A stretch of DNA of 64,000 nt. It comes from Siphonodentalium dalli. Its lineage: Eukaryota; Mollusca; Scaphopoda; Gadilida; Siphonodentaliidae. Shown piece after piece: positions 19,608 to 61,255 of this stretch (the stretch's first letter is position 1; every line of letters starts with the position of its first letter). The position numbers were made by a program, and so were the translations under genes. The stretch is from the NCBI GenBank assembly GCA_032622095.1, contig CP136063.1, positions 114,224,723 to 114,288,722 on the forward strand. Direction: 5' to 3'. The notes beneath the pieces are model-generated. The model ran no database searches, was not told the origin of the DNA, and saw only the letters and a program-made list of their open reading frames with translations.

Positions 19608-19818
19608 CAGTAATGCCCTAAATAATCGACTCCTTAACCCCAGCAGAATTATGGGCAATTTTTCAGGATTTATTCAGAAATATGGCTTATTGCCATTCAA
19701 TGGAAAGCTCTCCCTGAGAGCTTTCCGATGAATGGAACAAGCCATATTTCCGACTAAATCCTGAAAAATTACCCATAATTCTGTTGTGGTAAGGAGTCGA
19801 TTATTTAGGGCATTACTA
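19608..19818. mobile_element. TA-flanked hairpin MITE, copy A
   Basis: Starts CAGTAATGCCCTAAATAATC and ends with its complement, with TA on both sides (19606-19607, 19819-19820). The TA duplication and CAGT terminus fit the Tc1/mariner-pogo superfamily. The element is one long hairpin with a small loop near CTCTCCCTGAGAG. The arms of this copy have drifted apart at several sites (CCCCAGC against its partner CTGTTGTGG), so it looks older. No transposase. Confidence 0.9.
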
Positions 19819-20196
19819 TACATATACATATTCCTGAATCAGAAATTATGTTTTATTCATGAAAATTGAGGAAGTGATAATACTACAATGACCACACGTG
19901 CAGTTACATGTAGATGTTTGTTTACATTTTTGGCAACATATTGTCAGGACATTTTGGGACTTAATTACCTGTTCGGTATGGAATTTGTCAATACTAACTC
20001 ACTGTTCAAATTGACATGTTGACATTATTTTTTGGCAACCATTCTGTACTTGCTGGTGATATCGTTGTCATAACTGGGACCCTCAAATCAGACTGGGCAT
20101 CTTTAATACCAAAACATAAATCACAAACGGTGGAGAGAATAACTCTTCTCTAGAGTCTTTTGTCAGACTGCTTTCATCATCTAGTATATAATTTAA

Positions 20197-20450
20197 CCCT
20201 ATCATGACGGGAGCTGAGCTGGTACAGCATTAAGTTCCTGTGCCAGTACATTCTATTATATATGAGTGTCTCCCACAGGGATCCACACATATATAAGAGA
20301 TTGCACTGGCTTACAAGCTAATGATAAATATTGTTATGCCAATGTATTCTCATATATATGCGAGGTTCCCTATGGGGGACACGCATATATAAGAGAATGC
20401 ATTGGCACAGGATTTTCGCAAAATTTCAGGAAGCTCCAGTCTTAGAAGGG
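20197..20450. mobile_element. TTAA-flanked MITE (CCCTWTCA family), 254 bp
   Basis: Flanked by TTAA at 20193-20196 and 20451-20454. Ends CCCTATCATGACGGGAGCT and, inverted, CCCTTCTAAGACTGGAGCTT. TTAA plus CCCTTT-like termini suggest a piggyBac-like origin, by inference. The interior holds TATATATGCGAG / CTCGCATATATAAGAGAATG inverted subrepeats, duplicated once relative to the short copy at 24676. Confidence 0.8.
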
Positions 20451-22623
20451 TTAATAACAATTGCATTGCAGTCTATATTCAACAATGTATGTTTTAAAGA
20501 GACTCAAAGTAATCGCAGTGGGTTGATGTGCAAAAGTCCTGAATGTGCTAACCAAGAACAACATTAAAAATTAGATAATTGTCCAACTAAAAGAATTTGC
20601 TTATTGCAACCATTGTTATGTAAACATTAACTGTTACAATCCTATTAATACACATTGGGTGGCAATTGTGATTGAAAATCAATGTTTTGCTGAATAGGTT
20701 TCCATTCTTTTATCTTTTCTAATTTTCACCTTCATAATTTGATCATTTTATTTTAAAGCACTCCTGATCTACGAATGAATCAACAATGTAACTGTAACAG
20801 TTTACATAACACTGCTTTCAATTCGCGAGATCTCTTATAGGAGGTTTATTGATAATGAAAATAAGAACAAAAACAATAAATGTTTACATGTTCTTGATAA
20901 TGATGGTTTTACGGACTTTTACGATTTTTCACCTGTACTAACTGCAAAGTCATTGTGTCCCTTTAAAACTGCAATGTAATTGTTTTGAAATTATATACTT
21001 GCCCTGCTTGCCCAAGAAAGCCAGTAAAAAGTGAAAACATTCTAGAGGGGAGCAATATATTTCTTTCCATTATTCACAAGACTCCCTGGCAACCCTCTTA
21101 ATTCAGATTGTTTGGCTTCGGCAATCCGCTATGGCAACACTTTTGCCGTTGCCCAGTTCGGCATTGCTGATTGCCATTGACAATTATGAGGGCTTCCCTG
21201 GATTCCAGATCTATTGACTAGACAATTCTCATTATGATTATTAAAGATACGTAATCCGATTTAACTTAGGCTTAAGCTCAAGAGTTAACAGATTTAGATT
21301 TTTTAAATAAGCTATTTTTCACCACCTCAAATATTTGGTGGCCTGCAAATATTTAGCCGACTTATTCCAGAAATTGTACAGAAATGCGTGGAAAACGTTA
21401 TGAGAGGTCACGACTTTCGCTCTACTTTCAGTGGCGATTGTACATTACATATTTAATTTCGGAATATGAGACAATGAAAAGTATCGCTATCAACAAGAAT
21501 ATGCTGTGATAGTTGTTATGTGGGTACATATATTATACTTATTTACAAATCGGTAATCAGGTTTTATTAGACATCAGGTTAAATAGACATGTTATGTGGC
21601 ACCACGCTGGTTACAGGTGGGAATACTACATGTATGTGTTTACATTTGAGATAACATGCGTTGGGGAATTCCAATTTGAACTAGGAATCACCATATATGG
21701 AAGCTGTAAACCACACTTGTGACTTGCCCATCCACCAAACTGCCAAGAAAAAGTTTTATTACAGGACTTTTTCGGCAAATATGATATCGTTATTGGTATT
21801 GTTGTGAGTATTTATTGGTAATAAACTAATGTTGATAACTAAATCGGCTTTTGGTGAAATTCCGTTGTTGATGTAAGTGGATGATACGGGGACCATAGAA
21901 TCAGATTGTGTATCTTTAAATAACAAATGATTCATTGTCAAATACTGGTAATACATATTTTATGGAATACATGTGCAACCAATTATTTTTCTTAGTATCT
22001 TCAACATTGTCAAAAAGAATAACTCAATTTATTGAATTTTTTATACTTATTAGTTTGTTAATGTAAAGAAAATAAATTAATTAAGACACATTGTCCAGTT
22101 ACCATAACTAAAGGCTATTAGAAACAAAGGCAATCTTTCACAGCTCATATGCACTTGCATGCTTGTTGCCATCCAGAATATGGAAATAGAAACAGCCTAG
22201 TTATAAATTTTCAGCATGAATGTCATAGGGAAAAACAAGCAAATTGTAAAATAAATAGCATTATTATATATATGTGTAGCTAGTAATTATGTTCATTCTC
22301 AGCCAATTAACTCTCCCATGTGGTCACCCCTCCCGACATCGCTCTCATCAGGCACAAGATGTTGATATCGGACTGACAAACTGGACTGATATCACCTGTC
22401 TGATATTACTCAATACATACCAGTTGTGACCGCATGGAGAATCCCAGGGAGATCACGCGTTAATTACGTCACCTTTGGTGTACGCCTTGTCGTTTTCATC
22501 TGCTCTCAATTCCTTAGCATGAAATTCCCAATGGGTTCAGGAATGGTAATAATTAATCGTGAAGATACCATCAACTAATCTGGCTATGTAATAATAACAT
22601 TTTACTGGTCCGTAGACTCCGTA
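20451..22623. other. Non-coding with one dispersed-repeat piece
   Basis: About 21780-21935 resembles the GGGACC...TCTGATCGGATTG block of the 3.0/13.3-kb family. The remainder shows no recognisable gene. Confidence 0.35.
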
Positions 22624-22742
22624 CCGGTGCATTTTTTTGGACTCAACTGCGTAATGTACAAAGTCAATATCGGATCTCGTCTTCGACTCGGTCCGATATT
22701 GACTTTGTACATTCTGCAGTCTCGTCCAAAAATACTCACTGG
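22624..22742. mobile_element. 119-bp TA-flanked foldback element
   Basis: Left CCGGTGCATTTTTTTGGAC pairs with GTCCAAAAATACTCACTGG. The inner arm AATGTACAAAGTCAATATCG is perfectly inverted on the other side of a short loop near 22675. TA borders both ends. Confidence 0.75.
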
Positions 22743-24036
22743 TATGGACAAGCAAAACGTTTAATAACCTCAAAATACAAAGGACGTAACTTGAAAAATT
22801 ATTGAATGTGTCCAGGCAATAGTTCATATGTTGACCTCACTATTGGTAGCAATATTTGAATATATCAGAGAAAGGATTCTATCCACACAGTTAGTATCGC
22901 AGAAAAGAAGAATCAGATCAATCTTCAAGAGCGATGGACTAAAAAGTCAAACAATTGGCTCGAGGCATATGAGGTATGATGAGAAGGAAGCCTGTAATAA
23001 AGTTGCCTAGTCTTTTCCAGCCTGCATTCAATATCGATGTTGTCAAAGATGAAGTGCACATACCATGTTTAACCCTTCGTTTACTAAATGGAATCTCCCA
23101 CCCAGTTATAATGGTATAGGTTGGAATGGTCTATTACTCATATGGAGGGATGTTTAGGAAATAAAAGCAGACAACAGACAGGTGAAATACGGTAATTATA
23201 CAAGCACAGAATGATTCCTATTAATTGGAGGGATATGTTCAGATATTCAGTTCAACAATCAGCCTATGGTCTAAGAGAACAACTCATCAATTAGTTAAGA
23301 ATGGGTTAAGGACTGTAAAGACAAATCCATTGCATCCGTACCATTCTGCGTTGTATTGAAATTGCATTGCAGCAACATAGGCAACACCACAAAGGCATTC
23401 AGATGACGATACTCTTGTTATATTGTATCTGTTAACGCACACAATGGAGGGATTCTATTTTCAACACAACGCAAGCCCAATGTATAGCTTGTATGGCATG
23501 AAATGTGCATCATGACATTTTTGTAGTAGTTCTTGTATTCAGTCAAGAAAATTTAACTACTCAAGTTCATCTGTGAGAATAAGGATTTGGATGTTGGATT
23601 AGACAGGTATAGTATTATCATATAATTCAACTGTAACAGATAGATTAATCTGAAATATTACAATTAGTCCAATTTCGAACTTGTCAGCTACAATCGGAAA
23701 CTCTGAATTGTAATTAACACATCCATGTGAACGGTAAAATGCAAGCAACGGATCGTAGCAACACAACGGACCAACACAACATAAGGATACAATGCGGCCA
23801 TCTGAACAATGCTTTACACCTAAATGTACATGTATGGAAGGTGTCTTGCCATTTCAAGATTAAATGACTATGTTTGTATTATTATTTAAGTGTGCAAACT
23901 ATTTATTTGAGCCGACTAAACACATTGCCCAATTATCGTATTCTCGGCGCTCAATGATATTACCTTTGTTCTATTTCAGCATCAAACTCAGAAATGACAT
24001 GACGCGCAACTCACAGCATCTGTAAAGGCCTAACTA
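22743..24036. other. Non-coding with one dispersed-repeat piece
   Basis: CAGTTATAATGGTATAGGTT, GGAATGGTCTATTACTCATA and TGGAGGGATG (about 23103-23160) match 26900-26960 loosely. Otherwise nothing. Confidence 0.35.
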
Positions 24037-24169
24037 CAGTAATGCCCTAAATAATCGCCTCCTTAACCACAGCAGAATTATGGGTAACAAGCCAAATTTC
24101 CGACTAAATCCTGAAAAGTTACCCATAATTCTGCTGTGGTTAAGGAGTCGATTATTTAGGGAATTACTG
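24037..24169. mobile_element. TA-flanked hairpin MITE, copy B (133 bp, centre deleted)
   Basis: Same termini as copy A with TA on both sides. The left arm jumps from ATTATGGGTAAC to AAGCCAAATTTCCGAC, so most of the left arm and the loop are missing while the right arm is complete. Confidence 0.88.
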
Positions 24170-24671
24170 TACTTCACTGCTGAATGACATGAGGTTGTGT
24201 GCTGGGCAGTCGAGATACACTGGTACCATTGCACCATATTCTGAATTATCTTTATGAATGACGGCCGAAAGATATGATAGTGTGCTGTCCGAGGTTAGTC
24301 ATATAGCATACCGCATGAAATTTTGACTTGAGGTTAACAAAAACTTCCTTCACAACTGTTACCATTGTTAATCTATCTCTTTTGATCATTGGTCTGCAAT
24401 ATGTGGTATAAATAAGTGGTAATAGTGAACAGAATCATATTCATAAAGAAAGTAAGAAAAAATACAAAATAGATACATGTATTGGGGGAATGCTAAATAA
24501 TTGGGTGTCATGGAGAAACAATCAAACAGAAAGAATAAAAAAAATGAATTTAACTAGTATTTTAGTTAGCTTCTAAAATGTCTTATAAGCATTCCATTTT
24601 GGCAGTCACTTTTCCAGAATCTGATTGATCTAGAATCGGAATTTGAGAACACCATGCTGGCTTGACCCTTT
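24170..24671. other. Non-coding, nothing recognised
   Basis: AT-rich with no motif identified. Confidence 0.35.
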
Positions 24672-24675
24672 TTAA

Positions 24676-24825
24676 CCCTTTCAAGACGGGAGCTACACTG
24701 GTGCAGCATTATCCTGTGCCAGTGCATTACCTATATATGTGTGTCTCCCAAAGGGAGCCTCGCACATATAAGAGAATGTATTGGCAGTTTTTACAAAATT
24801 TCAGGAAGTTCCAGCCATGAGAGGG
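24676..24825. mobile_element. TTAA-flanked MITE, short form (150 bp)
   Basis: TTAA at 24672-24675 and 24826-24829. TIRs CCCTTTCAAGACGGGAGCT and, inverted, CCCTCTCATGGCTGGAACT match at about 14 of 19 positions. The interior has TATATATGTGTGTCTCCC / GGGAGCCTCGCACATATA as an inner hairpin. This is the shortest complete copy in the window. Confidence 0.85.
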
Positions 24826-25080
24826 TTAAGATGTAGTTAAGATTCTTAAACAGTACTCCGGATATGCCCTAGGTAGTTTTAACCGGTATTCAAGATTCAA
24901 CTAAATGGCTGGTATGCAGCTTGTATAGTACCAAAACTGTTCAAATTTTGATTATCTCTTTCGCCAAATGACCAATTTTTATCAAATTCAGTCTCATATC
25001 TGATAGGTTAAAGTTATGGATAACATACTTGAACAAACGTGAGGTGAAATATATTATTCTATTAACTCTATATTATATAA

Positions 25081-25665
25081 TACTAGCAGGTTAGCCCGCC
25101 ACTGGCGGCATTCGTCCCATGGCTTTGTTCGAAATAGCTTTTTTAATTTTTTTAATTAATTAAACAAATTAAAAATCCGCCAGTTTTACCCAATTTGACC
25201 TTGAATTGATCATTTTGAAGGTCAAGGTCAGGTCGGGGTCACAATTTAACCCGCCCATGACACTTCCCGTAGGTAGCAAGTTTGAGCTCAATCGGTTCGA
25301 GTCTATAAAGGACACACATATATATATCATTTGTGGGTACCCGTTTCAAGGTGAAGATCCCCTCTTTATCAACTACACTGCGGATAGGAACGCTCTTTAA
25401 CTATCAACCCGATTAACCCCCACAGTGCCGTTTGCGGTGATTTTGATGATTGGGAGTGGAGAATGAGTGCTCAGAGCTTCTCTAAAACGCCGCGAAGACC
25501 ATTCCCGTGGGTTTTTACCCTTAGATAGGAAGTTTTAGCTCGATCTGACCAGCCGTGTTCGAGTCTATAGAGGACAAATATACACACACACATATATATA
25601 CGGAGTTCTCAAAATATATAGTAGACTAGCCGATGAGCCCGACGTTGTCCGGGCTATTCAAAAAC
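25081..25665 (+). repeat. RTE-like repeat remnants
   Basis: Two pieces end similarly. One has GTAGGTAGCAAGTTTGAGCT, CAATCGGTTCGAGTCTATAA and AGGACACACATATATATA (about 25271-25328). The other has GATAGGAAGTTTTAGCTCGA, CCGTGTTCGAGTCTATAGAG and GACAAATATACACACAC (about 25524-25595). A new start (ACTAGCCGATGAGCCCGACG) follows at about 25624. Serial 3' tails without coding sequence. Confidence 0.55.
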
Positions 25666-25701
25666 CAAATTTCAAGTCGATAGCTCTACCCAGCCCGACG
25701 A

Positions 25702-26150
25702 TTTCAAGTCGATAGCTCTACCCGTTTCCGAGATCTGGTCTGCGCATGTGCGAAGCTGGCGTTGCACGGGCTCAGCGACCCGATAAAATTCGTATCCGGG
25801 GCAAGATACATTCACATATCAAATTTCAAGTCGATAGCGCCACCCGTTTCCGAGATCTCGTCTGCGTATGCGCGAAGCTGGCGTCGCACGGGCTCGGCGA
25901 CCCGATAAAATTCGTATCCGGGGCAAGATACATTCACATACCAAATTTCAAGTCGATAGCTCCACCCGTTTCCGAGATCTCGTCTGCGCATGCGCGAAGC
26001 TGGCGTCGCACAGGCTCGGCGACCCGATAAAATTCGTATCCAGGGCAAGATACCTTCACATAGCAAATTTCAAGTCGATAGCTCCACCCGTTTCCGAGAT
26101 CTCGTCTGCGCATGCGCGAAGCGGGCGCCGCACGGGCTCGGCAATACGAC
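25702..26150 (+). repeat. Exact 122-bp tandem array, about 3.7 units
   Basis: TTTCAAGTCGATAGC starts at 25702, 25824, 25946 and 26068, exactly 122 bp apart with no indels. Each unit contains CCACCCGTTTCCGAGATCTC, GTCTGCGCATGCGCGAAGC, CGGGCTCGGCGACCCGATAA and ATTCGTATCCGGGGCAAGAT. It is visibly more GC-rich than its surroundings. Frames stay open on both strands across units, but the period is not a multiple of three, so the apparent proteins change frame from unit to unit and are not credible. Confidence 0.9.
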
Positions 26151-26275
26151 AACGTCCACCGCCTGGTCAAACCACACACACGTACCAAGTTTCGTCCCGA
26201 TCGGTCGAGAATCGTAGATTTGTATAAATGACAGACATACAGACAGGCAGGCAGACAGACAGACAAACAGAGGTC
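26151..26275 (+). repeat. 3' tail of the 122-bp array with GACA repeat
   Basis: CCAAGTTTCGTCCCGATCGG followed by TCGAGAATCGTAG leads into GACAGACATACAGACAGGCA and further GACA units. Same layout as the ends at 2400-2565 and 10660-10760. Confidence 0.65.
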
Positions 26276-26290
26276 TTCAAAATATATATG

Positions 26291-27112: not shown

Positions 27113-27120
27113 ATAGAAAG

Positions 27121-28379: not shown

Positions 28380-29704
28380 TCAATGCAATTCAATGAAAGG
28401 CTCTAGTGATTTTGGCACAGTGCCTTTGTATTCTAACTCATTCTTAATAATAGCACAAGCAGCAAGACACTGCAGACTGAGGTGCTTCATCGGGGAAATG
28501 GCATCGAGGACGAGGTTTCCTCGCACCATCTCAAGTGCCGTCTTCCTCTCATTGTTACAGATATCCAGATGAGCATCGCTGTCAAGCAATGTCTTGATGA
28601 CTTCGTACCTACAAGGTCGATTGGATGCTGCAACGTGTAGAGGTGTGTTTCCATCAAGATCAACAGCATCGAGATCAGCATCAACTTCAACCAGCAGCTT
28701 GATTACATCAATGGAAGGAAAACTACAGACTGGGTACCGACCGACATTAGTTGTTTCTCTACTACATGCCAGGTGGAGTGGAGTAGAGCCTTTGTTACCT
28801 CTTAAATTCAAATGAACTAGTCGATAAGCACACTCTTTGAACTCATCTTCCTCCTCGCTGGATAAATTCTTTTGAAGACGACATATCAAACAGAGAAAGT
28901 GCATAATAATTGTCAACAAACGGTTGAAAAAGGTCGGATCTCGATCAGCTAATGGTGTATTCAATAAGCGTTCACGTCCTCTCTCAAGCTCATCAACCGC
29001 TTTCACTAAAACTCTTTTTATGTCTTCGAATTCAAGTCTGACGTTGAGTTTCTTGCGCGATTCATTAGTCATGAAAGAAAACAGCTCTGCAAAAGATAGG
29101 AAGCTACTCTGTGCCATTGGGTTTAAGGGTTCTAAAACTTTCTGTTGCATATCTAAAGCATACATCCACAATGCGATGCAGCGATCAAAATTACCCATAT
29201 CAGCATACAGCGCACCTCGATACCTGATGTAATATGTTGTATCAGGATGAGTGGGACCGAGAATCCTTTCGCGAACAAGGAGGGCTTGCATCCTGATATC
29301 GTCAGGTTCCCCGATCATTTCATCTAAATCCTCCATACTACAGGCTTCTGCCACATTTTCATAGGCTGCTATCACAGATGTTTCAGGAGGCTTTGGAAGA
29401 CAATAGGAACTATCAGAGAAACGGTCACCCATTGCCTGTCGCCAATAGGTCAAAGCACCAGACATGTCTTTTTTCTTGTCAACATAAGTTGCACCAAGTA
29501 ATTCCAGAGAATCTATTTTCTCCTGTTTTGTATGATGATCAGTTTTAATAAGGAATTCCACAATGTTTGCCCATCCAGCGACACTTGCCGCCAGCAGTGG
29601 TGTTGTACCATATGAATCTTTCTCCATAGTTGCTCCATACCTGAGTAGCATCTTCATGATTTCCAGACTACCAGATTCTGCGCAATCATGGAGAGCAGTG
29701 TTAC
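28380..29704 (-). CDS. fem1: fem-1 homologue (FEM1A/C type), coding exon 2
   Basis: Encodes residues 184-624 of a FEM1 protein. FEM1 proteins are substrate receptors of CUL2-Elongin B/C ubiquitin ligases that read C-terminal degrons; the nematode founder acts in sex determination. Visible parts are ankyrin repeats 6-7 (about 183-244, starting GNTALHDCAESGSL), a TPR-like helical region (about 250-470, with LLGATYVDKK, RMQALLVRERILGPTHPDT and YYIRYRGALYADMGNFDRC), and ankyrin repeats 8-9 (about 486-528 and 534-564). At the C-terminus lie a BC-box-like LQCLAACAI (594-602) and a Cul2-box-like VPKSLEPFI (613-621), so the ligase-docking end looks intact. The acceptor is TCTTCAG before GTAACACTGCT. 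Total length 624 residues compares with about 617-669 in human FEM1 proteins. No frameshift or stop was seen. Confidence 0.95.
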
Positions 29705-30479
29705 CTGAAGAGACAACAAGAGGGAGTAAAGGTAACGGTATCATTGACATACACAATAATACATCTCATAAAAAATATCATCTACATGGTATTATGTGCC
29801 TGAAATGGGGGAAGTCATCTTGCACTCTGGGGTACTGAATATTTACTTCTCTGCTGCATTTGTTCAGTCCTTCGATTTTGAGACACACAATTGCCCTTGT
29901 GAGTCTGGAATTGAAAAGAAGCGAGAAAAAAGTTGCGTGCCCCATGATCTTGGTTCAGTTTACTAATAAAGTGTAGCACAGTAAGGGCTGTGTTACTAAC
30001 AATCGTCCAAGAAATCATAGCATCCAAGGTTATACAACGAAGTGTTTTTTTAACCAATCTCGGTCAGTGCGTACTGTGGGTCATAGACAATCAAAGCAAT
30101 AAAAAAGATGACGATGTCAAAACAATTATTGCGGCATCATCAATCACTACTAGTGAGATATTCTGACTCAAGAGTCAAAATGGAACAGACACCAGTCCAT
30201 TCCACTCACAAAGTGAGTCGGCGCTGTGAGGAACTTTATGGTGAATAATGAATACTTAGTTTTTTTATTAGTTTTTTTATTAACATACATGTAGTGCAAA
30301 TCCATGTTATATGAGTGTATTATTTACCTGTTTACATGGACATGCATCGACTCACCAGTTATACAGGTACTAGTATTTCCCATTAGATGCGCCATTTGAG
30401 CAAAACTGTGCAACTGAATCCAAAATCGCACTTACAATAAACTGTGTGCCTGCGTTTTTTTCAAAATTGAAGGACTGAT

Positions 30480-31195: not shown

Positions 31196-32458
31196 GGTTA
31201 CGTAGCGATTCTCCGAAGACCCATAACTCCGAAGGTCCGATTCTCCGAAGGTCCGATTCTCCGACGCCCCGATTCTCCGAAAGCCCATAACTCCGAAGTC
31301 CCGATTCTCCGAAATCCCATAATTCCGAAGACCCATAACTCCGAAAGCCCATAACTCCGAAGGCCTATAACTCCGAACGCCCATAACTCCGAAGGTCTAT
31401 AACTGCGAAGTGCCGATTCTCTGAAGGTCCAATTCTCCGAAGATCATGTTTTATCGCTTATTAAATAGTGTACAGTCCAGTGGCGGCGTCAATGGGGCCC
31501 TAGGGAAGACCGCCCCCCAAAAAACATGTCAAATGTCATGTAAACGTCCGGAAATCCCTCCTATGCATACGGGTCCAAAATGGGTGGAATCCGGCGTACG
31601 AAAAGGGGGGAAGGGGCCCTCATATATTGGAAACGTTAACTATGTATTATAATAAGGTGATATCTACACCATCAGTAGTGTGCGACAAGCCTTAATTTTC
31701 CACAGAATGCTTAAATTTATGTAAGAAATACAATTATTTTGCCACAATGTACGTCTTAATACAATTAATATGATTAAACTGTGCACATCCGACTGCATTG
31801 GGGTGATTTGATACAATCAAGTTCATTTTATATATGAAAAAGGACAAGTTCTTCCCCGTTCACCCCTGTACATTTTACTCTGGCATATCATGAGCCAACG
31901 TAACGTTATAGTATCTGGTGTATAGTCAGTGGCGGGCCAGGATTCCCATTTAGGTGGGGGCAGTAGGAAAAGATTGAATATTTTGATGCCCCATGAACGA
32001 TTTCCGGGCGTTTACATGACATTGGACATGTTTTGGTAGGGGCCCATATTGTCTGAAATAGCAAGTAGAGATTTAATGGGGGCAGTAGGAATTTTGGGAC
32101 CCCTTGGCTTCGCCACTGGACTGTACACTATTTAGTAAACGATAATACCCCGATAAAACAAAATCTTCGGAGAATCGACCTTCGGAGAATCAGACCTTCG
32201 GAGTTATGGGCCGTCGGAGAATCGGGCCTTCGGAGTTATAGGTCTTCGGAGAATCGGCCAATTCGGAGTTATAGGTCTTCGGAGTTATAGGTCTTCGGAG
32301 AATCAGCCCTTCGGAGTTATGGGCTTTCGGAGAATCGGATCTTCGCAGTTATGGGCCGTCGGAGAATCGGGTCTTCGGAGTTGTGGGCCGTCGGAGAATC
32401 GGGTCTTCGGAGTTGTGGGCCTTCGTAGTAATAGGTCTTCGGAGAATCGGTCTGACAC
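31196..32458. mobile_element. 1.26-kb foldback transposon with inverted satellite arms
   Basis: The left arm is an array of CGATTCTCCGAAG and CCATAACTCCGAAG units (14-15 bp, 31206-31446). The right arm is the same array inverted (CTTCGGAGAATCGG and CTTCGGAGTTATGG, 32163-32450). Inside them a second inverted segment pairs TAAATAGTGTACAGTCCAGT at 31463 with its complement at 32115-32134. A 9-bp direct repeat TGGGTGCAG lies just outside (31187-31195 and 32459-32467). Inverted arrays of short tandem repeats plus a 9-bp target duplication match Drosophila FB/MULE-like foldback elements. The centre carries no transposase, and CAGTGGCGG-like hAT-style ends occur inside (31478, 31931 and 32118). Confidence 0.82.
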
Positions 32459-34552: not shown

Positions 34553-34681
34553 CAGTAATGCCCAAAGTAATCCCCCGAGAGCTTTCCGATGAATGGCAAC
34601 AAGCCATATTTCCGACTAAATCCTGAAAAATTACCCATAATTCTGCTGTGATTAAGTGGGCAATTACTTTGGGCATTACTG
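34553..34681. mobile_element. TA-flanked hairpin MITE, copy C (left arm shortened)
   Basis: CAGTAATGCCCAAAGTAATC at the left is mirrored by ATTACTTTGGGCATTACTG at the right, with TA on both sides. The private CAAAG variant (family consensus CTAAA) is present in both arms. Most of the left arm between the terminus and the loop is deleted. Lies in the fem1 intron. Confidence 0.88.
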
Positions 34682-36074: not shown

Positions 36075-36184
36075 TTATTCTACACCAAAATATAATGTTG
36101 CCTTTGCCCTTTTGCCATACCCAGTAGCTAATTTTGATGGCTCCAATCTCTGAATATTGGCAAAAAATAACATGAAATATGCAC

Positions 36185-36734
36185 CTTTGACACTTTTCCT
36201 GTTGAACTTAGCACCAAGTTTAAGGAGATACTCTGCAATATCAATGTGTCCTTTGTAACAAGATATCATTAAGCAGGTATGACCATGGCGATTTGCAATC
36301 TCTGGATCCGCTCCTTCGGCAATAAGATACTTCACAATACTAAGATGACCATCAAAACAAGCAGCACGGAGGGGTGTGGAGTTTGTCAATGTTGTCTTGT
36401 TGACATCAGATCCCTTCTCGACTAAGTACTTCACAATCGAAAGATGACCGGCAGCAGCGGCACACCAAATGGGTGGGGCTCCTTCTATTGTTTCACCATC
36501 AAATGTCACCGATCCAGGTTGTTCGAAGTCCACAAAGCAGTTTTCGGACAGATACTTAACTACATCAAAGTGGCCGTTTCTGCAAGACATTATCAGTGGT
36601 GTCGCGCCATTGGTTTTTGCGTGAATAAGTTTGAAGATGTCATCCTTCGATTTGTTTTCTAAAAATAATTTCAATCTGCCAACTTTTCCGTCTCGGGCTG
36701 CATTGTAAATCACACTTTTGGTTGTGGTATCCAT
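36185..36734 (-). CDS. fem1: fem-1 homologue (FEM1A/C type), coding exon 1
   Basis: Encodes residues 1-183 plus the first base of codon 184. The start MDTTTKSVIYNAARDGK aligns with the conserved N-terminus of FEM1A/FEM1C, and an in-frame TAG lies directly before the ATG, fixing the start. Five ankyrin repeats are visible: about 2-31, 41-70 (TNGATPLIMSCRNGHFDVV), 83-112 (EGAPPIWCAAAAGHLSIV), 117-146 (NSTPLRAACFDGHLSIV) and 150-179 (HGHTCLMISCYKGHIDIA). Asp79 (in FDGETIEG) and Asp128 (in CFDGH) correspond to Asp77 and Asp126 of human FEM1C, acidic pocket residues reported to bind C-terminal arginine degrons; this correspondence is by my alignment. The frame remains open past the splice donor for about 36 codons, but that extension does not resemble the family. 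Confidence 0.95.
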
Positions 36735-37193: not shown

Positions 37194-37937
37194 TTGCACA
37201 TGATTAGAACCCTGAATACTACAAGGTCACCTTTTTTAATTTTCAACGTGTTCACCCTGGTAAACCATTTATGCTATGCTGATGACATGTGTCTACTTGC
37301 ACCCTCTCTAGAGGGACTTCGTCGTCTCGTGAGAATATGTGAAGCCGAAGCTTTACCCATAAATTTGGTATATAATTGCACAAAAACAGTAGGGATGGCG
37401 TTCATACCAAAATCCCTACCCCTCACGACCTTTCCAAAACTTGTTCTCATGGGTAGAGAACTTAAGTTTGTTCCCGCCTATAAATACCTTGGACATATTC
37501 TCAGAGACGATCTTATTGATGATGATGATATTATGAGGCAATATAGATCAATTTGTTCCCGTTCCAATATCCTCATGAAAAAGTTTTACAAGTGTTCATT
37601 TGATGTAAAACGCCATCTTTTTCATGCTTATATTTCATCATTATATTGTTGTACTCTGTGGGAAAATTTCACCCAGCGCAGTTACCGCAAATTAATTGTA
37701 TGTTATAACAATGCCTATAGGAAGTTTATGGGGTATGAATGGAGATGTAGTGCAAGTGGGATGTATGCCAGGGATGTTGTGAGTTCTGTTCCTATGTTGA
37801 TAAGAAAGAGTGTGTATGGTCTGAGAGAACGTGTGACTGAATCTGAAAATACAATTTTGCATGCAATCATTAATTCCGATTTATTTTATGAATCTTATCT
37901 TTTCAAACATTGGAAAGAAATTCTGTATTACATATAA
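37194..37937 (+). pseudogene. 5'-truncated LINE (non-LTR) reverse transcriptase fragment
   Basis: A 247-codon open frame whose similarity begins near residue 22 (VNHLCYADD). YADD at residues 28-31 is the catalytic motif C of the reverse-transcriptase palm. It is followed by AYKYLGHILRD, DDDDIMRQYRSICSRSNILM, KRHLFHAYISSLYCCTLW and YNNAYRKFMG, the order seen after the palm in animal non-LTR elements. The fingers, the rest of the palm and the endonuclease are missing, as expected of a 5'-truncated insertion. The first ~20 codons are probably flanking DNA. The clade (CR1/L2/Rex-like or RTE-like) cannot be fixed from this piece. It lies just upstream of fem1, on the opposite strand. Confidence 0.85.
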
Positions 37938-49995: not shown

Positions 49996-50706
49996 CAGTA
50001 ATGCCCTAAGTAATCGACTCCTTAAACACAGCAGAATTATGGGTAACTTTTCAGGATTTAGTCGGAAATATGGCTTGTTGCCATTCATCGGAAAGCTCTC
50101 AGGGAGAGCTTTCCGATGAATGGCAACAAGCCATATTTCCGACTAAATCCTGAAAAGTTACCCATAATTCTGCTGTGTTTAAAGGTATGGTTGGCCTTGG
50201 CGGTGGGTATCCTGTGAAAATATTTCCACCCGTCAAAAACCGCCACAAACAGAAAGAACATCAAAATGTAGACAGACTTTGTCCGTATATAAATAAGAAA
50301 TATCGCATAAACAGTATGTTATTCTCATATGTTTAACCATTGTTATGTAAACAAAAGCATAAAAAGTTACTTTTCTGGTGTTTGTTTATATTATGATGGT
50401 AAACATAAAGAGCGTTCTTTGTTGGTGAATTCCTGATATGGAACTAATAAAGAGCGTTTATGCCATTTGTGTGTGATTAGCCAGTAGCATTGTGCTGTCC
50501 TCTGTAACCCAATCAGGCTCTTGCTTAAGTAAAATATAGTAGGTATTTATGATAACATGCTGTTTACGCGATGGTCATGGTATATATGAACGAAACTGTA
50601 TGCGTTTTAATGTTTTTCTGTTTACGGTGTTTGGAACAAATATGAATATTTTCGACAATTAAGGCCTCACGTGCCTTTAAGGGGTCGATTACTTAGGGCA
50701 TTACTG
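49996..50706. mobile_element. TA-flanked hairpin MITE, copy D (split by an insertion)
   Basis: Termini CAGTAATGCCC / GGGCATTACTG with TA on both sides. The private variants CTAAGTAATC and TTAAACACAGC occur in both arms (GATTACTTAG, GCTGTGTTTAA). The right arm is interrupted at TTAA by the 494-bp element at 50183-50676. Confidence 0.9.
50183..50676. mobile_element. 494-bp TTAA-flanked MITE inserted in hairpin copy D
   Basis: TTAA lies on each side (50179-50182, 50677-50680). Removing the insert plus one TTAA restores the expected MITE arm GCTGTGTTTAAGG. TIRs AGGTATGGTTGGCCTT and AGGCACGTGAGGCCTT match at 12 of 16. It contains two AATAAAGAGCGTT-type motifs about 41 bp apart (50405, 50446), as the Kolobok-like element at 55279 does. 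No coding capacity. Confidence 0.88.
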
Positions 50707-50978: not shown

Positions 50979-51054
50979 TTAAATGACAAGAATGCAAAGA
51001 TGATGATTCGAAAATATATGATCGAATCAATCAAAATCTGCAAGGTTGTCTGTA

Positions 51055-51419: not shown

Positions 51420-51905
51420 GAACTGTAAGTAAGAGTTCAGTCCCCTCACTACGCTGGTCTGACCACTGCCATCACTTATACAGAATGTATTAAATACTAA
51501 CAATTGTTATTTAAGACTTTTATCAGTTACAATTCATTCTGATTTGAGCTACAGTAATGCCCTAAATAATTGACTCCTTAAGCACAGCATAATTATGGGT
51601 AATTTCTCCGGATTTAATCGGAAATATGGCTTGTTGCCATGAATGGCAATAAGCCATATTTCCGACTAAATCCTGAAAAATTACCCATAATTCTGCTGTG
51701 CTTAAGGAGTCGATTATTTAGGGCATTACTGTAGCAAATTCTGAATGAATACTGACAGTTCAGTTTCTCAGAATAATGCAAAAAATGAATTGTAACCAAC
51801 AAAAGTCTTAAATAAAAAATGTAAGGTTTCCTTACATTCTGTATTCGTGATGGCAGCGTTCAGACCAGCATAGCGAAGTCAATGAACTCTGCCTTGCAGT
51901 TTGGA
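51420..51905. repeat. Imperfect ~485-bp palindrome centred on MITE copy E
   Basis: Outer arms pair TACGCTGGTCTGACCACTGC and ATACAGAATGTA (about 51450-51490) with ATGCTGGTCTGAACGCTGCC and its ATACAGAATGTAAGG partner (complement of about 51830-51880). Inner arms pair TATTTAAGACTTTT and GTTACAATTCATT with the complement of 51785-51815. Even the bases next to the MITE (TTCATTCTGATTTGAGCTA and the complement TTCATTCAGAATTTGCTA) are inverted. The palindrome is thus centred on the MITE. Confidence 0.75.
51552..51731. mobile_element. TA-flanked hairpin MITE, copy E (180 bp)
   Basis: Family termini and TA borders. The private variant TTAAGCACAGCA is mirrored by TGCTGTGCTTAA. The loop region is shortened (TTGCCATGAATGGCAA). 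Confidence 0.9.
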
Positions 51906-52844: not shown

Positions 52845-52848
52845 TTAA

Positions 52849-53099
52849 ACCTTCAATGACTGGAGCTTCCTGAATTTTTGCGAAAACTCTGTGCCAGCAT
52901 TCTCTTATATATGATAGTCTCCCATAGGAAGCCTTGCATATATAAAAGAATACATTGGCCTAACAATATTTTCCTTGACCTTGTAAGCCATGCATTCTCT
53001 TATATACCTTGAAAGGACCTGTATAATTTCTATATACAAGAGATTGCAGTGGCACAGGATCTTTAATGCTGCACCAGCACAGCTCCCATCATGAAAGGG
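52849..53099. mobile_element. TTAA-flanked MITE (CCCTWTCA family), 251 bp
   Basis: TTAA at 52845-52848 and 53100-53103. ACCTTCAATGACTGGAGCTT at the left, CAGCTCCCATCATGAAAGGG at the right. Same family as 20197-20450 but in the opposite orientation. Confidence 0.78.
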
Positions 53100-53135
53100 T
53101 TAAATAACACAGGCTCCAGTGACTGGCTCAGTATG

Positions 53136-53563
53136 GCTGAATAGGTCATTGTCGCATGGTTTCGAGCAAAAAGACACCCAGGATCTCTCAAACGGGCAAA
53201 AAGACACCCAGGGTGTCTCAAACAAGCAAAATGACACCCAGGATCTCAAAGTCTCGCCAAACAACGGGAATTTTGTTTAGTCGTCTGCTATTAATATTAT
53301 GATAATTATTTGTTTGTGATCGGAGTGAAATATCAACGAAATTTAAAATGGGCTTTGAGTCTGACTGGCAGAGCAGTTCCGCATCCTTGATAGTTGGACC
53401 AATATTAATAGCAGACGACTAATCAAAATTCCCGTTGTTTGGTGAGACTTCGAGATCCTGGGTGTCATTTTGCTTGTTTGGGACACCCTGGGTGTCTTTT
53501 TGCCAGATTGAGAGATCCTGGGTGTCTTTTTGCTCGAAACCATGCGACAATGACCTATTCAGC
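53136..53563. mobile_element. 428-bp long-TIR element with 9-bp target duplication
   Basis: Direct repeats CTCAGTATG at 53127-53135 and 53564-53572 bracket arms of about 165 bp that start GCTGAATAGGTCATTGTCGC and end with the exact complement. Each arm contains about three tandem copies of GCAAAAAGACACCCAGGATC. The unpaired centre is about 95 bp. A 9-bp duplication with long TIRs fits a MULE-like element; there is no transposase. Confidence 0.88.
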
Positions 53564-53670
53564 CTCAGTATGACGTCTTCATTGTTTTGTATGTACTTGA
53601 ACAAATTATCATTTCTTATTGAAATGGCCATATTATGATCAGAATGGCACATTGATATGTCCCTCATCTA

Positions 53671-53865
53671 CAGTAATGCCCTAATTAATCGACTCCTTAA
53701 CCACAGCAGAATTATGGGTAACTTTTCAGGATTTAGTCGGAAATATGGCTTGTTGCCATTCATCGGAAAGCTCTCCAAGGCAACAAGCCATATTTCCGAC
53801 TAAATCCTGAAAAGTTACCCATAATTCTGCTGTGGTTAAGCAGTCGATTAATTCGGGCATTACTG
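53671..53865. mobile_element. TA-flanked hairpin MITE, copy F (195 bp)
   Basis: Family termini with TA borders. Private CTAATTAATCGAC is mirrored by GTCGATTAATT. The loop is reduced to GGAAAGCTCTCCAAGG. Confidence 0.9.
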
Positions 53866-54694: not shown

Positions 54695-54907
54695 CAGTAA
54701 TGCTCTAAATAATCGACTCCTTAACCACAGCAGAATTATGGGTAACTTTTCAGGATTTAGTCAGAAATATGGCGTGTTGCCATTCATCAGAAAGCTCTCA
54801 GTGAGAGCTTTCTGATGAATGGCAACACGCCATATTTCTGACTAAATCCTGAAAAGTTACCCATAATTCTGCTATGGTTAAGGAGTCGATTATTTAGGGC
54901 ATTACTG
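54695..54907. mobile_element. TA-flanked hairpin MITE, copy G (213 bp)
   Basis: Family termini (CAGTAATGCTC variant at left) with TA borders. AGTCAGAAATATGGCGTG and CATCAGAAAGCTC carry three private changes, all mirrored in CACGCCATATTTCTGACT and GAGCTTTCTGATG. Confidence 0.9.
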
Positions 54908-55278
54908 TACATGATCATGTTCATATGTGACCCTATTGGCTACTTCACATTAATCAACTGGCACCATCTTAGGAAATTAAAATTATTTGCTATCTTAAGA
55001 TACAGATCGTGCAATGAAATGTCGTACAGTTTCATACTGAACACGCTACAATTTCAACCGGCACTGAACATCATTATAAATCACACGACAAATATTGCAT
55101 TGTGTGCTTCCCTCTTCAGAAATAGTCATTCAACTAACAACTATAATATACATATAGGTGGGATGAAATATACATATAATGTGATGAAAAACAACTCTCA
55201 AAGTTAATATTATGATAAAGTTACCAGAGGTAATTTCATACTTAGATATACTTAAGATGTATAAAATCTGTTTGTTAA
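54908..55278. other. Non-coding, nothing recognised
   Basis: Only short frames without recognisable motifs. Confidence 0.35.
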
Positions 55279-55849
55279 AGGATTACAATGCTCATGAAAC
55301 AACAAAACTCCATCGGAAAGCCACCCCTATTGTGATCACAATAATCCAAGTCCCATAAAAATCGGTTAATAAATAAGCAGAGAAATAAATAAATAATACC
55401 GCCACCGGCTGTCGGCTATCTCCGTCGCAAAACCTCGCATGACGTCAAGCGAGGTAAACTAATTAAAAACACGGAATCGGATTCGGAGTTAATTGTGTCT
55501 ACCTATATGACGATGGAATATCCGGAACAGACATCAGCGCGTGAGCGTGATGGAATTTCTGCGGGGCATATCAATAGCATTGTGTACACATGGTTAATTG
55601 TCATCGCGCGGTGAGTTATATTCACTTGTGATTTGTCTTAAGCGCTGTTTGGAAAGTGATTATTTTGACAAAAAAAACTATAGAAGGCCGATTGAGCGGG
55701 GTAGGTCACACTTTTGTGTCAAAACTAAAGCTTATACAAAAACACGAGCAGGCATGTGAACTCTATTCGGGCGCGTGTTCACGATGTTGTTTTAATTTTC
55801 CGTATATATGCCCCGGGTGTCCCGTAGTTACAATCATTCATTCGTAACA

Positions 55850-56029
55850 ATGCCATATAAATGCAATGTTTTCGGTTGTGGCCGGTCTAGTGACTCTCAG
55901 TTAGGTATATTAACGCTGTATTCATTTCCAAAGGATGTTCGTTTACGTGACATTTGGCGGGATTTCTGTGGGGAAACCCGTTGCGCAAAATCAGAAACCG
56001 ATTACATATACCAAATAAAGAGCGTTTAG
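55850..56029 (+). CDS. N-terminal THAP zinc-finger fragment
   Basis: A 59-codon frame starting MPYKCNVFGCGRSS from ATG at 55850, with a good context (AACAATG). Cys5, Cys10, Pro27 (in FPKD), Arg33 and Trp36 sit where THAP domains such as THAP1 have Cys5, Cys10, Pro26 and Trp36. THAP domains are C2CH zinc fingers binding DNA in transcription factors and in P- and Kolobok-type transposases. The frame stops after DYIYQIKSV, just where the second ligand pair (ICSxHF) is expected. Lys57 stands at the expected Cys, and the break coincides with an AATAAAGAGCGTT motif at 56014. Either an intron starts here or the gene is broken. An upstream in-frame ATG at 55808 is less likely. Confidence 0.6.
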   Translation: MPYKCNVFGCGRSSDSQLGILTLYSFPKDVRLRDIWRDFCGETRCAKSETDYIYQIKSV

Positions 56030-56109
56030 CGTTAAGTCAGTCATGGTTAAGAATACATACTATTACAGTTAAAGTGGAGAGTATGTTGAATAATCCACGA
56101 TAACAACTA

Positions 56110-56395
56110 TTCTAAGTCGATTCCCCATTTCCTTCACCATGGTTCAATAAAGAGCGTTCCATGTTAAGAGTTTTCCTAATATGGTACGAATAAAAAGAGT
56201 TTAATAAAGCGAAATTGCTATGACTTGGAAGGATATATAAAGCATGCGTATCGGAAGATCGTGTACATGTATTGACCTGTATTGGTGTAATCATTAACAA
56301 AATCACGATGACAACTGTTCTAAGTCCAGTCTCTTTACCTTGACGCAATAAAGAGCGTTCACTATTACGATATATTGCGAATAAAGAACGCTTGT
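56110..56395 (+). repeat. ~200-bp duplication carrying AATAAAGAGCGTT motifs
   Basis: ACGATAACAACTATTCTAAG at 56098 and ACGATGACAACTGTTCTAAG at 56304 each lead to CAATAAAGAGCGTTC (56146, 56347) and then a second, weaker motif about 35-45 bp later (GAATAAAAAGAG, GAATAAAGAACG). Confidence 0.65.
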
Positions 56396-57196
56396 ATATG
56401 TGCTTACATATTAAACCCGATTATTATCCCTCCTTCAAAAAGTGTTATATATGATTGGATGTTTAAACGAACCACGGCGAACGTTTATATATTTTATAAT
56501 CCTATTGTTATGCGTAATTGACACATAGAGGTTGAGTTATGACCTGCATATTCAATAGACCGCATCGCTAGAGTGTTAATTTTATAGGCCAATAACCACG
56601 CTTAAACGCAGTGATTTCATCAGTGACAGTCGGCAAGATAGTTTGGGGGTAGGGGAAGCAATATTCTGAAATATATATAAACACCATACTGCCCTAATAT
56701 ATACATGATTCATAACCAAGAAAAATGAACTTATCATATCATATTGGTAATGAATGACTTGATTATAATTAAAACGAAACGCTCTTTATTGACACAAGAC
56801 AAAGGTCATCTGGAAATTGGAATGTTTACGAGATGATAATTGCCTAATAATAGTCTTCGCATATATATATATATATATGCAATCTTTATATGAATATATA
56901 ATATAACTTGGGACTATTCCGGTAACGAGAAAAAATATATAAACACGAGCACGTGTTTATATAGATAAATGGGCGCAAAACTGAATAATATACGGGCATG
57001 GCTTTATAGTAACAACACATCGCGATACATATAATAATAATAACACGATAAAAACATTTAATTACGAGAACCGTGATGTTTTCGGCAAAGTTTTGCATTC
57101 GTAGTGTGATAACGCGACAATCTTCAAAGGCCGCGATCGACTACATGCAAACTTAAAATACTGCCGTAGCGTATCTATGCGTTGTCGATGGGTTAC

Positions 57197-57266
57197 CACG
57201 TGATCGATCACGTGCTATGCTTCTGTTTACATGTGACAAACACGTGATCGGGCCGATGATCACGTG
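57197..57266. promoter_or_regulatory. Four CACGTG sites in two inverted pairs
   Basis: CACGTGATCGATCACGTG (57197-57214) is a perfect 18-bp palindrome. CACGTGATCGGG and CGATGATCACGTG (57241-57266) form a second, looser pair. A further CACGTG lies at 56950. The cluster is 175-245 bp from the right end of the Kolobok-like element, where subterminal transposase sites would be expected. CACGTG is also the canonical E-box, so the binder is uncertain. Confidence 0.5.
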
Positions 57267-57444
57267 GCTTCGTCTGCAACAAAATCTTCGGCTAACTTCG
57301 GAATTTTTTATAATCGTTATAAAAATAACGAATGGCGGCCGAATATTAGATTATATGCGCCCAATGGACATTATATACATGTATATATATTATCGGTATA
57401 TTGAAAGAAAATATTATTGTTTTTTCAGCACCATATTCCTTTAA

Positions 57445-58445
57445 GTCTGTGCTTAAAATTGTAGCTCTAAGAGTATACCATGATCAGGCATATTAATCTA
57501 CATATGTTGAAGTCTGATCAGATGTTCATGTATGCCATAACCATTTCTAGAGGTATATTTCCTACAATCGAATCATATTACCTTCTTTGTATTTAAATTA
57601 ACACAGTACTATTTTTCGAACACCAAATGGCGAGAAAATATAAAACATGGCGAAAAATAATACTGCGTGTACAATAACATTCATTATAATTAATATGACG
57701 TTGACCTGAACCAGCACAATAATTTATGCAAGCTGATCACTCTACTGAGAGTCAAATAATAAATTTAATGTTAACTAGTTTTGTTGAGTAAAAGGCTTGA
57801 GTAAGACATATATTTATTCATCATGACTTATAAACTTGTATGTCTTGCCTGTCAATCTTGTCTACACAACTTGTAGTAGATACTTTGAGAGTTGGAATTT
57901 TTTTCCAAAAGGTAGCAGTTTGATGGAGAAATAATTTTGTTGAACTTGAGAGCAAAATCAACAATTTTCGTAAATACAGCAATAGGCTTTGTACTATCAT
58001 TCACTGATGATAATTAATTGCTATTGGAACATATAAATATAATTAATGTTCAGTAAAATAGCAAATGTAATTGCTAATTTTATTTGATGCCATCTCCCAG
58101 TGTGATCATAGGCCTACTAACTATGACTAGATGTGGTTCATCTCAAGACATATTATTTAAGTATATAAGCAATGCTGTGGCAACATGTGGAATCTATAAT
58201 GCCACAGCATTAAATTTGTCATAAGACATTTTACCTAATTTTGAGGGTTGTATATGTTTTTTTGTTCAATTGTGAAACAAACCGCTACATCAAACCTTGC
58301 ATTTAACGAAAGTGTCAATGACACTGTAGCTCAACTTGGAAAGAGAATAATTTCATGTGTTACTGTCAATGGAGCGATTAGGAATGCGGAAAGTTGAAAG
58401 GTCTAAGTAACACTTGATTAATATCAACATGAAGAGATATATAAA
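57445..58445. other. Non-coding, nothing recognised
   Basis: AT-rich, with a small inverted repeat around 58166-58208 (AATGCTGTGGCAACATG / ATGCCACAGCATT). Confidence 0.35.
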
Positions 58446-59470
58446 GTAAAATCTAAGATGGTTGCTGATGGCTATGTTTTCCAATGAAATTCAAAAACAT
58501 TTGATAGCTGCCATCTAGTAGATCAATATCAAGATTAATATGAAGTTTGCTGATGATCGGATGAGGGAAGTGGACTGTAGGGTGTGCCAAAGGATTTTAA
58601 TAGTCATGCAAAGAGTAAAATCCAAGATGGTTGCTGGCGGCCATGTTTTTAGGCCGAATGACCCCAAAATGACTTGTTTCCATCTACATGTCATTGTCAA
58701 CATCTTTGACAAATTTCATGATGATCCAATTAAAGGTACGACCTGTAGCCCGTGCCAAAGGATTTAGTCATGCAAAGAGTAAAATCCAAGATGGCTGCTG
58801 GCGGCCATGTTTTTTGGCCGATTGACCCCAAACTGACTCGTTCCCATCTACATCTCAATATTAACATCCATGACAAATTTCATGATGATCGGACAAACAG
58901 TATGGCCTCTAGACCGTGCTAATGGATTGAATTTTGAAGCGGCCATGTTTTTTTGGCCGAATGACCCCAAAATGACTCGTTCCCATCTACATGTCAATGT
59001 CAACAGTCATGACAAATTTCATAATGATCCGGCCAAAGGTACGACCTGTAGCCCATGCCAAAGGATTGAGTCATGCAAAGAGTAAAATCCAAGATGGCTG
59101 CTGGCGGCCATGTTTTTTAGCTGAACTCGTTTCCCATCTACATGTCAATATTAACTTCCACGACAAATTTCATGATGATCAGACGAACAGTCCGGCCTGT
59201 AACCAGTGCTAATGGATTGTATTTTTAAATCCAAGATCGACGCTGGCGGCCACGTTTTTTTGACGAATGACCCCAAAATGAATCGTGCCCATAAAAAAAA
59301 TCATAATGATCTGGCCAAAGGGACGACCTGTAGCCCGTGCTAAAGGAAATTGTTGATGAATCACGCACACACACACACCCTCACACACGTACGCACACAC
59401 ACAGACGATGGATACCAAGCCATGGCAATAGCTCAAACTTTACAAAGTAAAGTTGAGCTAAAAAGTGCAT
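58446..59470 (+). repeat. ~150-167-bp tandem array with SINE-like tail
   Basis: About six units begin near 58446, 58611, 58778, 58928, 59081 and 59226. Each has GTAAAATCCAAGATGGCTGC, TGGCGGCCATGTTTTTT, GAATGACCCCAAAATGACTC, CCCATCTACATGTCAATGTC and ACAAATTTCATGATGATC. The tail GATGGATACCAAGCCATGGC, AATAGCTCAAACTTTACAAA ends the array, as it does for the single unit in the fem1 intron (32470-32700). Confidence 0.85.
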
Positions 59471-60453
59471 TTCATGTTTATATTTTATTCCAAATGCAAG
59501 TACTTTATGCTATTTGCTGCAGTGTGACCATAGACTACAAACTATGCAGCTATGCAGGCCTGAAAACATGTTGCCGGACATATGCAGAATGTGGTCACCA
59601 CAAGGCAAATTTAGTGACGCTACCCTGCACAGCTGGCTGGCATCACTAAATTCACCTTCTGGGGACCTCATTCTGCTTTGGCTTCATCTCTGGAAAGTAT
59701 CCTTATTATCATATTAAATTGTTTTTAGTTTCTTTAGAAAGTTTCTCTTCATTTTGTAGTTTAGTTTCTAAATTTGCAAATGACATAATGCATTATTGAG
59801 GTGCCCAATATGTGCACATCACCATCTTCACCATCCAGGTCTACCATAGCAGATGAGGCCATGCAGAGTGAGGTCCCAAGAGGATGATATTAGCCCGCTG
59901 TGCGGTTAGCGCAATAAATTCACCTCCGGGAACCTCATTCTGAAAATGTCTGGCACCATATTTTCAGGCCTGACACTATGAGTGGATGCGAAGCTCCTCA
60001 AGACGTCATATTTATAAAATAGTAACCTAAATATATATGTCATCCAGGGGTCGATCATCCGAGTCTATGACAATATGATACAAAGTTGGTTAACAGCCGT
60101 CCTGTTTTAGGATGTGCAATTCTCAAGTCAGTATCATTTTATTGGATTACAACTTCATGGAGTAGACGACTTGGCGTAGGAATTTTGTTTTGAGTGCGGC
60201 ATGTAAATTGAACACTTCAGTTTGAATCCAGGTTATGATGTAGTGTACTGTTTCACAATTGAATAAATTATTATCAACAGCCAGGTTCAGCTACATGTAT
60301 GTGTAACTTGTGTTGCCATTGCTAACCTGATTCACGTGGCCATTCCCCCTAAACGTACATGGTCAAACGGTTTAGATGTTTTGTGTCAAATGTGTAGCAT
60401 TATGAAACTGGTAGCAAAGAGGAATAATTCAATATCCTGATAACCGTTGCCTA
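59471..60453. other. Non-coding, nothing recognised
   Basis: A frame reaching 59649 starts inside the repeat and is not credible. No gene identified. Confidence 0.35.
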
Positions 60454-60668
60454 CAGTAATGCCCTAAATAAACGACTCCTTAACCACAGCAGAATTATGG
60501 GTAATTTTTCAGGATTTAGTCGGAAATATGGCTTGTTGCCATTCATCAGAAAGAGCCCTCGGTGAGAGCTTTCCGATGAAAGGCAACAAGCCATATTTCC
60601 GACTAAATCCTGAAAAATTACCCATAATTCTGCTGTGGTTAAGGAGTCGTTTATTTTGGGCATTACTG
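60454..60668. mobile_element. TA-flanked hairpin MITE, copy H (215 bp)
   Basis: Family termini with TA borders. Private AATAAACGACTCC is mirrored by GGAGTCGTTTATT. The loop is CCCTCGGTGAGAG. Confidence 0.9.
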
Positions 60669-61008
60669 TATGTGTGAATGTAAGATCTTCTATAGTGAGC
60701 CGCCAACAATATTCAGGCAGTAGGAGAATAGAATGTCTGTGCAGAAAAGATTATGTTTTGATTGAAGCCAATTTGGCATATCGGCAGTCACGCTGTGGAC
60801 ATCTTTCTCTACCATCGGATTAATTATTGTTTACAGGTTCTGCTACAAGTTGGGCCGATATCTCAAAACATGTAGCTTTGGTGCTGTAAAATCACATGAT
60901 TATTCCCGCCAAGTGCATATCCATAGCAATACCATAGTAACACACATTACAAGTTATATATACATGTGGCTGATCCTGGCTAACACCAGCAAGAAGGAAG
61001 CTCAAATA
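60669..61008. other. Non-coding, nothing recognised
   Basis: Spacer between two MITE copies. Confidence 0.35.
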
Positions 61009-61255
61009 CAGTAATGCCCTAAATAATCGAATCCTTAACAACATCAGAATTATGGGTAATTTTTCAGGATTTAGTCGGAAATATGGCTTGTTGTCATTCA
61101 TCGGAAAGCCCTCACTGAGAGCTTTCCGATGAATGGCAACAAGCCATACTGAGAGCTTTCCGATGAATGGCAACAAGCCATATTTCCGACTAAATCCTGA
61201 AAAATTACCCATAATTCTGCTGTGGTTAAGGAGTTGATTATTTAGGCCATTACTG
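61009..61255. mobile_element. TA-flanked hairpin MITE, copy I (247 bp, inner duplication)
   Basis: Family termini with TA borders. The segment ACTGAGAGCTTTCCGATGAA followed by TGGCAACAAGCCAT is tandemly duplicated in the right arm, making this the longest copy. Confidence 0.9.

Follow-up and report, generated by a model that had tools for sequence, protein, structure and literature searches.

Copying of one arm of an inverted repeat from the other has been proposed in several settings. For Angel, a miniature inverted-repeat transposable element (MITE) of zebrafish, a fold-back amplification model was put forward in which replication passes through the stem-loop and the nascent strand serves as template (Izsvak et al., 1999, as described in PMC12628747). 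In yeast, quasipalindrome correction by template switching makes imperfect inverted repeats perfect (PMC3820800), and nematomorph mitochondria contain concerted inverted repeats in which substitutions come in pairs, one per arm, with template switching or conversion as the proposed cause (PMC6649704); fold-back priming at resected breaks has also been described (PMC7999016). At the level of these descriptions, fold-back amplification of MITEs and the perfection of inverted repeats by template switching are already known; literature searches at the level of titles and abstract openings found no published arm test of the kind reported here. This test concerns a hairpin MITE family of the scaphopod mollusc Siphonodentalium dalli (genome 2.2 Gb, nine contigs), nine copies of which (A to I, Table 1) lie in a stretch of 64,000 nucleotides (C3:114224723-114288722; hereafter the window). 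The likeness of the two ends of a DNA transposon is an old question, and the size of this family allows changes of the source lineage, which are mirrored (present in both arms of a copy), to be told apart from changes of resident copies, which are not; it is also a natural record of the positions at which long hairpins break in the germ line. The reading that we consider probable is that mirrored changes come mostly from founder hairpins whose arms already matched, that the arms mutate independently once a copy is inserted, and that the hairpin tip is a preferred break point, with the matching itself arising by self-templated copying.

The consensus element is a 213 bp hairpin composed of a 106-bp arm, one central base and a second 106-bp arm (106+1+106), flanked by TA on both sides and with ends of the form CAGT.... 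The 22-base arm word with C at site 31 has 68,137 matches in the genome, the exact 28-base outer end occurs 8,777 + 8,958 times, and a pattern of 13 terminal bases per end, counting the target TA, is found at 7,557 places. The element is a MITE: a short inverted-repeat hairpin with thousands of copies and a size too small to encode a transposase. Arm sites are numbered 1-106 from the outer end, with the tip being site 106 and the centre; "inner sites" are 35-105 without 52, and "outer sites" are 12-34, plus 52 where stated.

Two samples were analyzed. Sample 1 (loci L001-L091) consists of 91 elements from the first 100 listed places of the exact 28-base outer end; it is confined to the first 21 Mb of contig C1, and the outer sites of the anchored arm cannot vary. 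The second is a set of 124 independent copies with both ends intact, all on contig C1, for which 11 fixed element bases were required per end; its sources were 50 elements listed for the 13-base-ends pattern, 82 of 100 listed places and one sample-1 element, and six of 130 loci with both ends intact were dropped (L019, L094, L095, L098, L133, and L141). In agreement with the TA target duplication of Tc1/mariner elements, TA follows the free end in 45 of 53 well-aligned sample-1 copies, TA being part of the anchor pattern used to find copies; the CAGT end is also taken by us to be a mark of the Tc1/mariner superfamily.

Fourteen alleles are mirrored in at least three of the 124 copies each (12A, 15G, 15T, 20T, 21A, 24C, 25A, 25G, 25T, 26T, 27A, 31A, 34A, and 52T), ranging in abundance from 15G (39 copies), 52T (34) and 15T (17) to 12A (6) and 31A (3), and a one-base +T insertion after site 26 is mirrored in four copies (L105, L134, L136, and L147). 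At site 52, T is confined to one arm in 10 of 124 copies. Across the set there are 184 mirrored sites vs 51.6 after shuffling of arms, a test that keeps subfamily allele frequencies, not relatedness; 170 of these fall in the outer sites plus 52 (shuffle 43.9, maximum 66), and the remaining 70 sites contain 14, vs 7.5 when shuffled (maximum 17 in 2,000 shuffles). For the outer sites plus 52, the two arms of a copy diverge by 6.1% vs 14.3% between copies, and the nearest arm is the copy's own partner for 23.2 of 248 arms. The recurrent mirrored alleles mark subfamilies, each inherited from a founder with matched arms.

A change in one arm of a founder should mark all members of the subfamily that descends from it. 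Examination of 13 overlapping subfamily classes over sites 12-105, excluding CpG sites and the tip, identified no one-arm allele near fixation, the largest shared one-arm changes being 6/34 (15G class, site 105), 3/8 (27A class), 2/5 (15T+25G), and 1/2 (31A). Since no such change marks all members of its subfamily, source-lineage changes are mirrored; and with 14 recurrent alleles and one insertion present in both arms, single-arm mutation alone cannot give the pattern, as had been argued from the window by itself. The tip is unlike between arms in many copies. The two arms of L106 (15T+52T in one, 15G+52C in the other), L144, L151, and L164 have alleles of two different subfamilies, which suggests exchange between elements; in all, 23 of 124 copies differ between arms at two or more diagnostic sites, many probably by plain mutation. 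Arm site 39, which is not a CpG site, has an excess of unmirrored G>T: the arms of 16 of the 124 copies are unlike for this change, and no copy has it in both arms. An inherited one-arm founder mark had been suspected for 39T from sample 1; this was rejected, as the change lies on one side of the centre in eight of these copies and on the other in five, with three unoriented.

Once inserted, the arms drift apart. Alleles seen in only one copy of the 124-copy set are one-armed in 73 cases and mirrored in two. Divergence at inner sites is 5.57% between the two arms of a copy and 5.73% between arms of different copies, and a copy's own partner is the nearest arm for 1.3 of 247 arms (chance 1.0). 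The original prediction, under which homogenized arms would pair by copy in an arm tree, is at odds with a FastTree tree of 248 arms, in which only nine of 81 cherries join the two arms of one copy. Among ten supposed duplicate pairs, only the segmental duplicate L009/L015 was informative, with three later in-element changes, none of them mirrored; six pairs were without in-element change, L004/L011 and L006/L013 were truncated and of little use, and L098/L099 is not a duplicate pair. A simple rough model of the inner sites would place per-site conversion at approximately 1.9 times the point mutation rate, with an upper value of approximately 4.6 times. Strong continuing conversion in resident copies is disfavored because of the inner-site divergence; conversion is weak.

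After six duplicate loci were dropped, sample 1 provided 85 independent elements: 25 intact, 37 with deletions of 8 bases or more, 17 truncated, and six with insertions. Of the 60 rearranged elements, 30 are broken within 5.5 bases of the tip; in 5,000 random trials the mean was 6.4 and the highest count 16. One event was scored per element, including five two-event elements for each of which one event was chosen, all five touching the tip; the corresponding counts are 25/55 without these five elements (random mean 5.8, maximum 16) and 31/65 with both events counted (random mean 6.9, maximum 18). Deletions that extend from the tip into one arm only are found in L035, L038, L046, L076, and L090, among others, and in copies C and F of the window. 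In eight single-arm loci the arm stops at arm site 106 or no more than two bases away from it. Six of these loci (L216-L219, L221, and L223) have no facing arm across the remaining ~3.8 kb, and at L222 and L224 the sole facing arm is that of another, complete hairpin; L216 and L217 each have a further arm in the same direction. The ninth arm-only locus, L220, is interpreted as a deletion on one side accompanied by a further insertion. The possibility that the arm is the terminal repeat of a longer element was rejected, given that in the nine arm-only loci, extended to 4 kb, the next 45 bases differ by eye in all nine. Breaks occur preferentially at the hairpin tip and leave either single arms or a whole arm plus a trimmed partner; the tip breaks are most naturally read as cruciform or hairpin cleavage. 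In palindrome centre-break revision, similarly, one-sided or central deletions abolish perfect symmetry.

All nine TA-flanked copies claimed for the window were located at the starts given for them, as were the mirrored variants named for copies C to H (Table 1), and the diagnostic C/T site described there is arm position 52, at which both arms agree in A, D, E, F, G, H, and I. However, mirrored sites are a minority in these copies (14 mirrored vs 37 unmirrored), and most of the variants are not copy-specific: whatever is mirrored in C, D, E, and F is already present in both arms of other elements, which for these four copies is the outcome named beforehand as refuting the original prediction, whereas the G triple (69A + 80G + 95A) and the 19A of H look private within the searches made. 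Copy A, with its unlike arms, had been set apart as a possible old copy that escaped; it has nine unlike sites, but it is no lone exception, as E has six, H five, and I seven. Arm divergence is 34/774 within window copies vs 435/6019 between them, a gap due mostly to sites 12-34 plus 52 (13/201 within vs 248/1609 between); at sites 35-105 without 52 the values are 18/475 vs 163/3626. Other features of the window are included in Table 1.

Table 1. Copies of the hairpin MITE and other features in the window (window positions; alleles by arm site)
Feature	Position	Strand	Description
Copy A	19608..19817		Full hairpin; arms unlike at 9 sites, both with 52T
Copy B	24037..24169		Left arm 1-52 fused to right arm 1-87; tip deleted
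Copy C	34553..34681		One-sided tip deletion, left arm ~1-21 fused to whole right arm; 12A + 15G mirrored (subfamily alleles)
Copy D	49996..50706		Left arm whole, right arm interrupted by foreign ~498-bp insertion; 15G + 31A mirrored (subfamily alleles)
Insertion in right arm of copy D	50183..50680		~498 bp; both junctions TTTAA
Copy E	51552..51731		Arms 1-89 and 1-93, tip deleted; 31G + 52T mirrored
Copy F	53671..53865		Left arm whole, right arm 1-87 (tip deleted on one side); mirrored 15T; C/G at site 25
Copy G	54695..54907		Full 213-bp hairpin; 69A + 80G + 95A mirrored, triple apparently private; two unlike sites
Copy H	60454..60668		Full hairpin, AG inserted near tip; 52T; mirrored 19A, apparently private
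Copy I	61009..61255		Hairpin with 34-bp direct duplication beginning at tip; 52T
Open frame	28380-29756	-	Ankyrin repeats
Overlapping long inverted repeats	31206-32450		Several
Open frame	36075-36734	-	Ankyrin repeats
Reverse-transcriptase-like fragment	37194-37937	+	RVT_1 score under curated cut-off
Other inverted repeat	53135-53564		Adjoins copy F; 164-base arms, 96% complementary, 102-base spacer

Site 31, at which D and E have different mirrored alleles, was followed across the genome in the same 22-base word: besides the C form, there are 3,952 arms with A, 1,377 with T, and 188 with G. The first 100 arms listed for each allele yielded 24 within-element pairs for C, 20 for A, two for T, and four for G, against chance expectations of 1.4 (A), 0.49 (T), and 0.066 (G); the C list includes a tandem array, and the calibration is approximate. 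Accordingly, 31A behaves as a subfamily allele and 31T as a mostly unmirrored mutation (P 0.086 for two pairs). Mirrored 31G is present in none of the 124 copies but in four other loci among the first 100 places listed, and the other mirrored alleles of these four elements differ (15G; 20T+52T+83C; none; 15T). Given these differing backgrounds, matching happened repeatedly. A tandem array with a MITE copy inside is situated on contig C1 at ~713033-922995, where the arm word repeats approximately every 11,175 bases in the later part.

As an exact 36-base word, the G triple is present in four arms: both arms of G, and a single arm at each of L210 and L211; these two loci look like duplicates of one another, and their other arm has the consensus base at all three sites. 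The single allele 80G occurs in 343 arms and the 19A of H in 290; the first 100 arms listed for each contain one mirrored pair for 80G (L098) and none for 19A. Based on one exact-word search for G and on 100 of 290 places for H, the G triple and 19A are apparently copy-level events or very small lineages.

For the matching of arms in the source lineage, we posit that a change in one arm would be copied to the other arm, with the hairpin serving as its own template. This could proceed by template switching during replication or gap repair, or by fold-back-primed fill-in after tip breakage; the matched copy would then be amplified by transposition, and resident copies would undergo arm copying rarely. 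A stricter version, that each new amplifying lineage is founded by a tip-broken hairpin (one whole arm and a stub) that folds back and resynthesizes the missing arm, we regard as improbable; if true, breakage would destroy many copies yet create matched sources, writing source-lineage mutations into both arms. Several points weigh against the account of matched founders and self-templated copying. Sites 12-34, which make up 23 of 94 sites, account for 13 of the 14 recurrent mirrored alleles (P 1.2e-7 under uniform placement), unmirrored changes are evenly spread (7.3 per site at 12-34, 6.8 at 35-105), and this outer clustering is not predicted by a pure copying mechanism. Two of the 14, 20T and 21A, are CpG transitions, for which coincidence may be part of the cause; within the inner arm a source-lineage change is seen at site 52 alone, and the rule that such changes are always mirrored depends there on that one event. 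Tip breakage and arm matching are linked only in that we infer the connection, and no autonomous partner of the family was found, no transposase family search having been run.

The outer clustering is better explained by selection for matched ends, or by import of ends, than by neutral hairpin copying. If sites 12-34 are read by a transposase, matched ends could amplify preferentially or be acquired from autonomous relatives, with hairpin copying playing a minor part, and it is in keeping with this that besides site 52 no inner allele is mirrored in at least three of 124 copies. Yet an exact double mutation is still required unless arms or ends get copied, and end recognition alone leaves unexplained 31G on four backgrounds, 52T, and the inner mirrored changes in copy G, L131, L172, and L186; moreover, no transposase gene with such ends has been identified, and none was searched for. 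Selection or end exchange is a strong rival, if less likely than not as the principal cause. A similarly tentative standing is given to the other option of the original prediction, corresponding to the Angel model, in which every transposition rebuilds the element from one arm and copies are born perfect and then decay. Rebuilding would account for shared alleles being mirrored and single-copy alleles not, and for the lack of founder-level one-arm alleles at non-CpG sites 12-105, but it sits uneasily with the mixed-subfamily arms of L106, L144, L151, and L164, unless these recombined after insertion; furthermore, rebuilding from aged resident copies should often mirror inner changes, whereas the excess amounts to only ~6.5 sites in 124 copies. 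The sources look young, 52T being the only inner source-lineage allele, and rebuilding at birth and a rarer matching before amplification therefore predict nearly the same data.

Continuing conversion between the arms of resident copies is very unlikely: the small inner excess (14 mirrored sites vs 7.5) and the G triple are in its favor, but inner divergence within copies equals that between them, no post-duplication change in L009/L015 is mirrored, and L210/L211 have the G triple in one arm only. Coincidence of independent mutations, aided by mutational hot spots, has a negligible claim as a general explanation; shuffles do give ~7.5 of the 14 mirrored inner sites, but for the outer sites and 31G chance is rejected by the shuffles (170 mirrored cells at 12-34 plus 52, far above the shuffled maximum) and by the pair counts. 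Matched founders whose descendants decay independently remain the reading that we favor. The interpretation drawn from the window survives insofar as arms were matched somewhere in the lineage; the privacy of most variants and a high rate of conversion between resident arms do not.

Like Angel, the family described here is a short hairpin MITE; it differs from the Angel model as described in that the matching observed is that of subfamily founders, and the arms of resident copies drift apart. Quasipalindrome correction in yeast, in the description cited, concerns short reporter repeats, whereas here the signal is found in transposon lineages and is weak in resident copies. The long repeats of nematomorph mitochondria, according to the account cited, mostly stay identical, in contrast to the present hairpins, which decay after insertion. 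Compared with palindrome centre-break revision, the record here extends across many independent copies of one element, single arms included.

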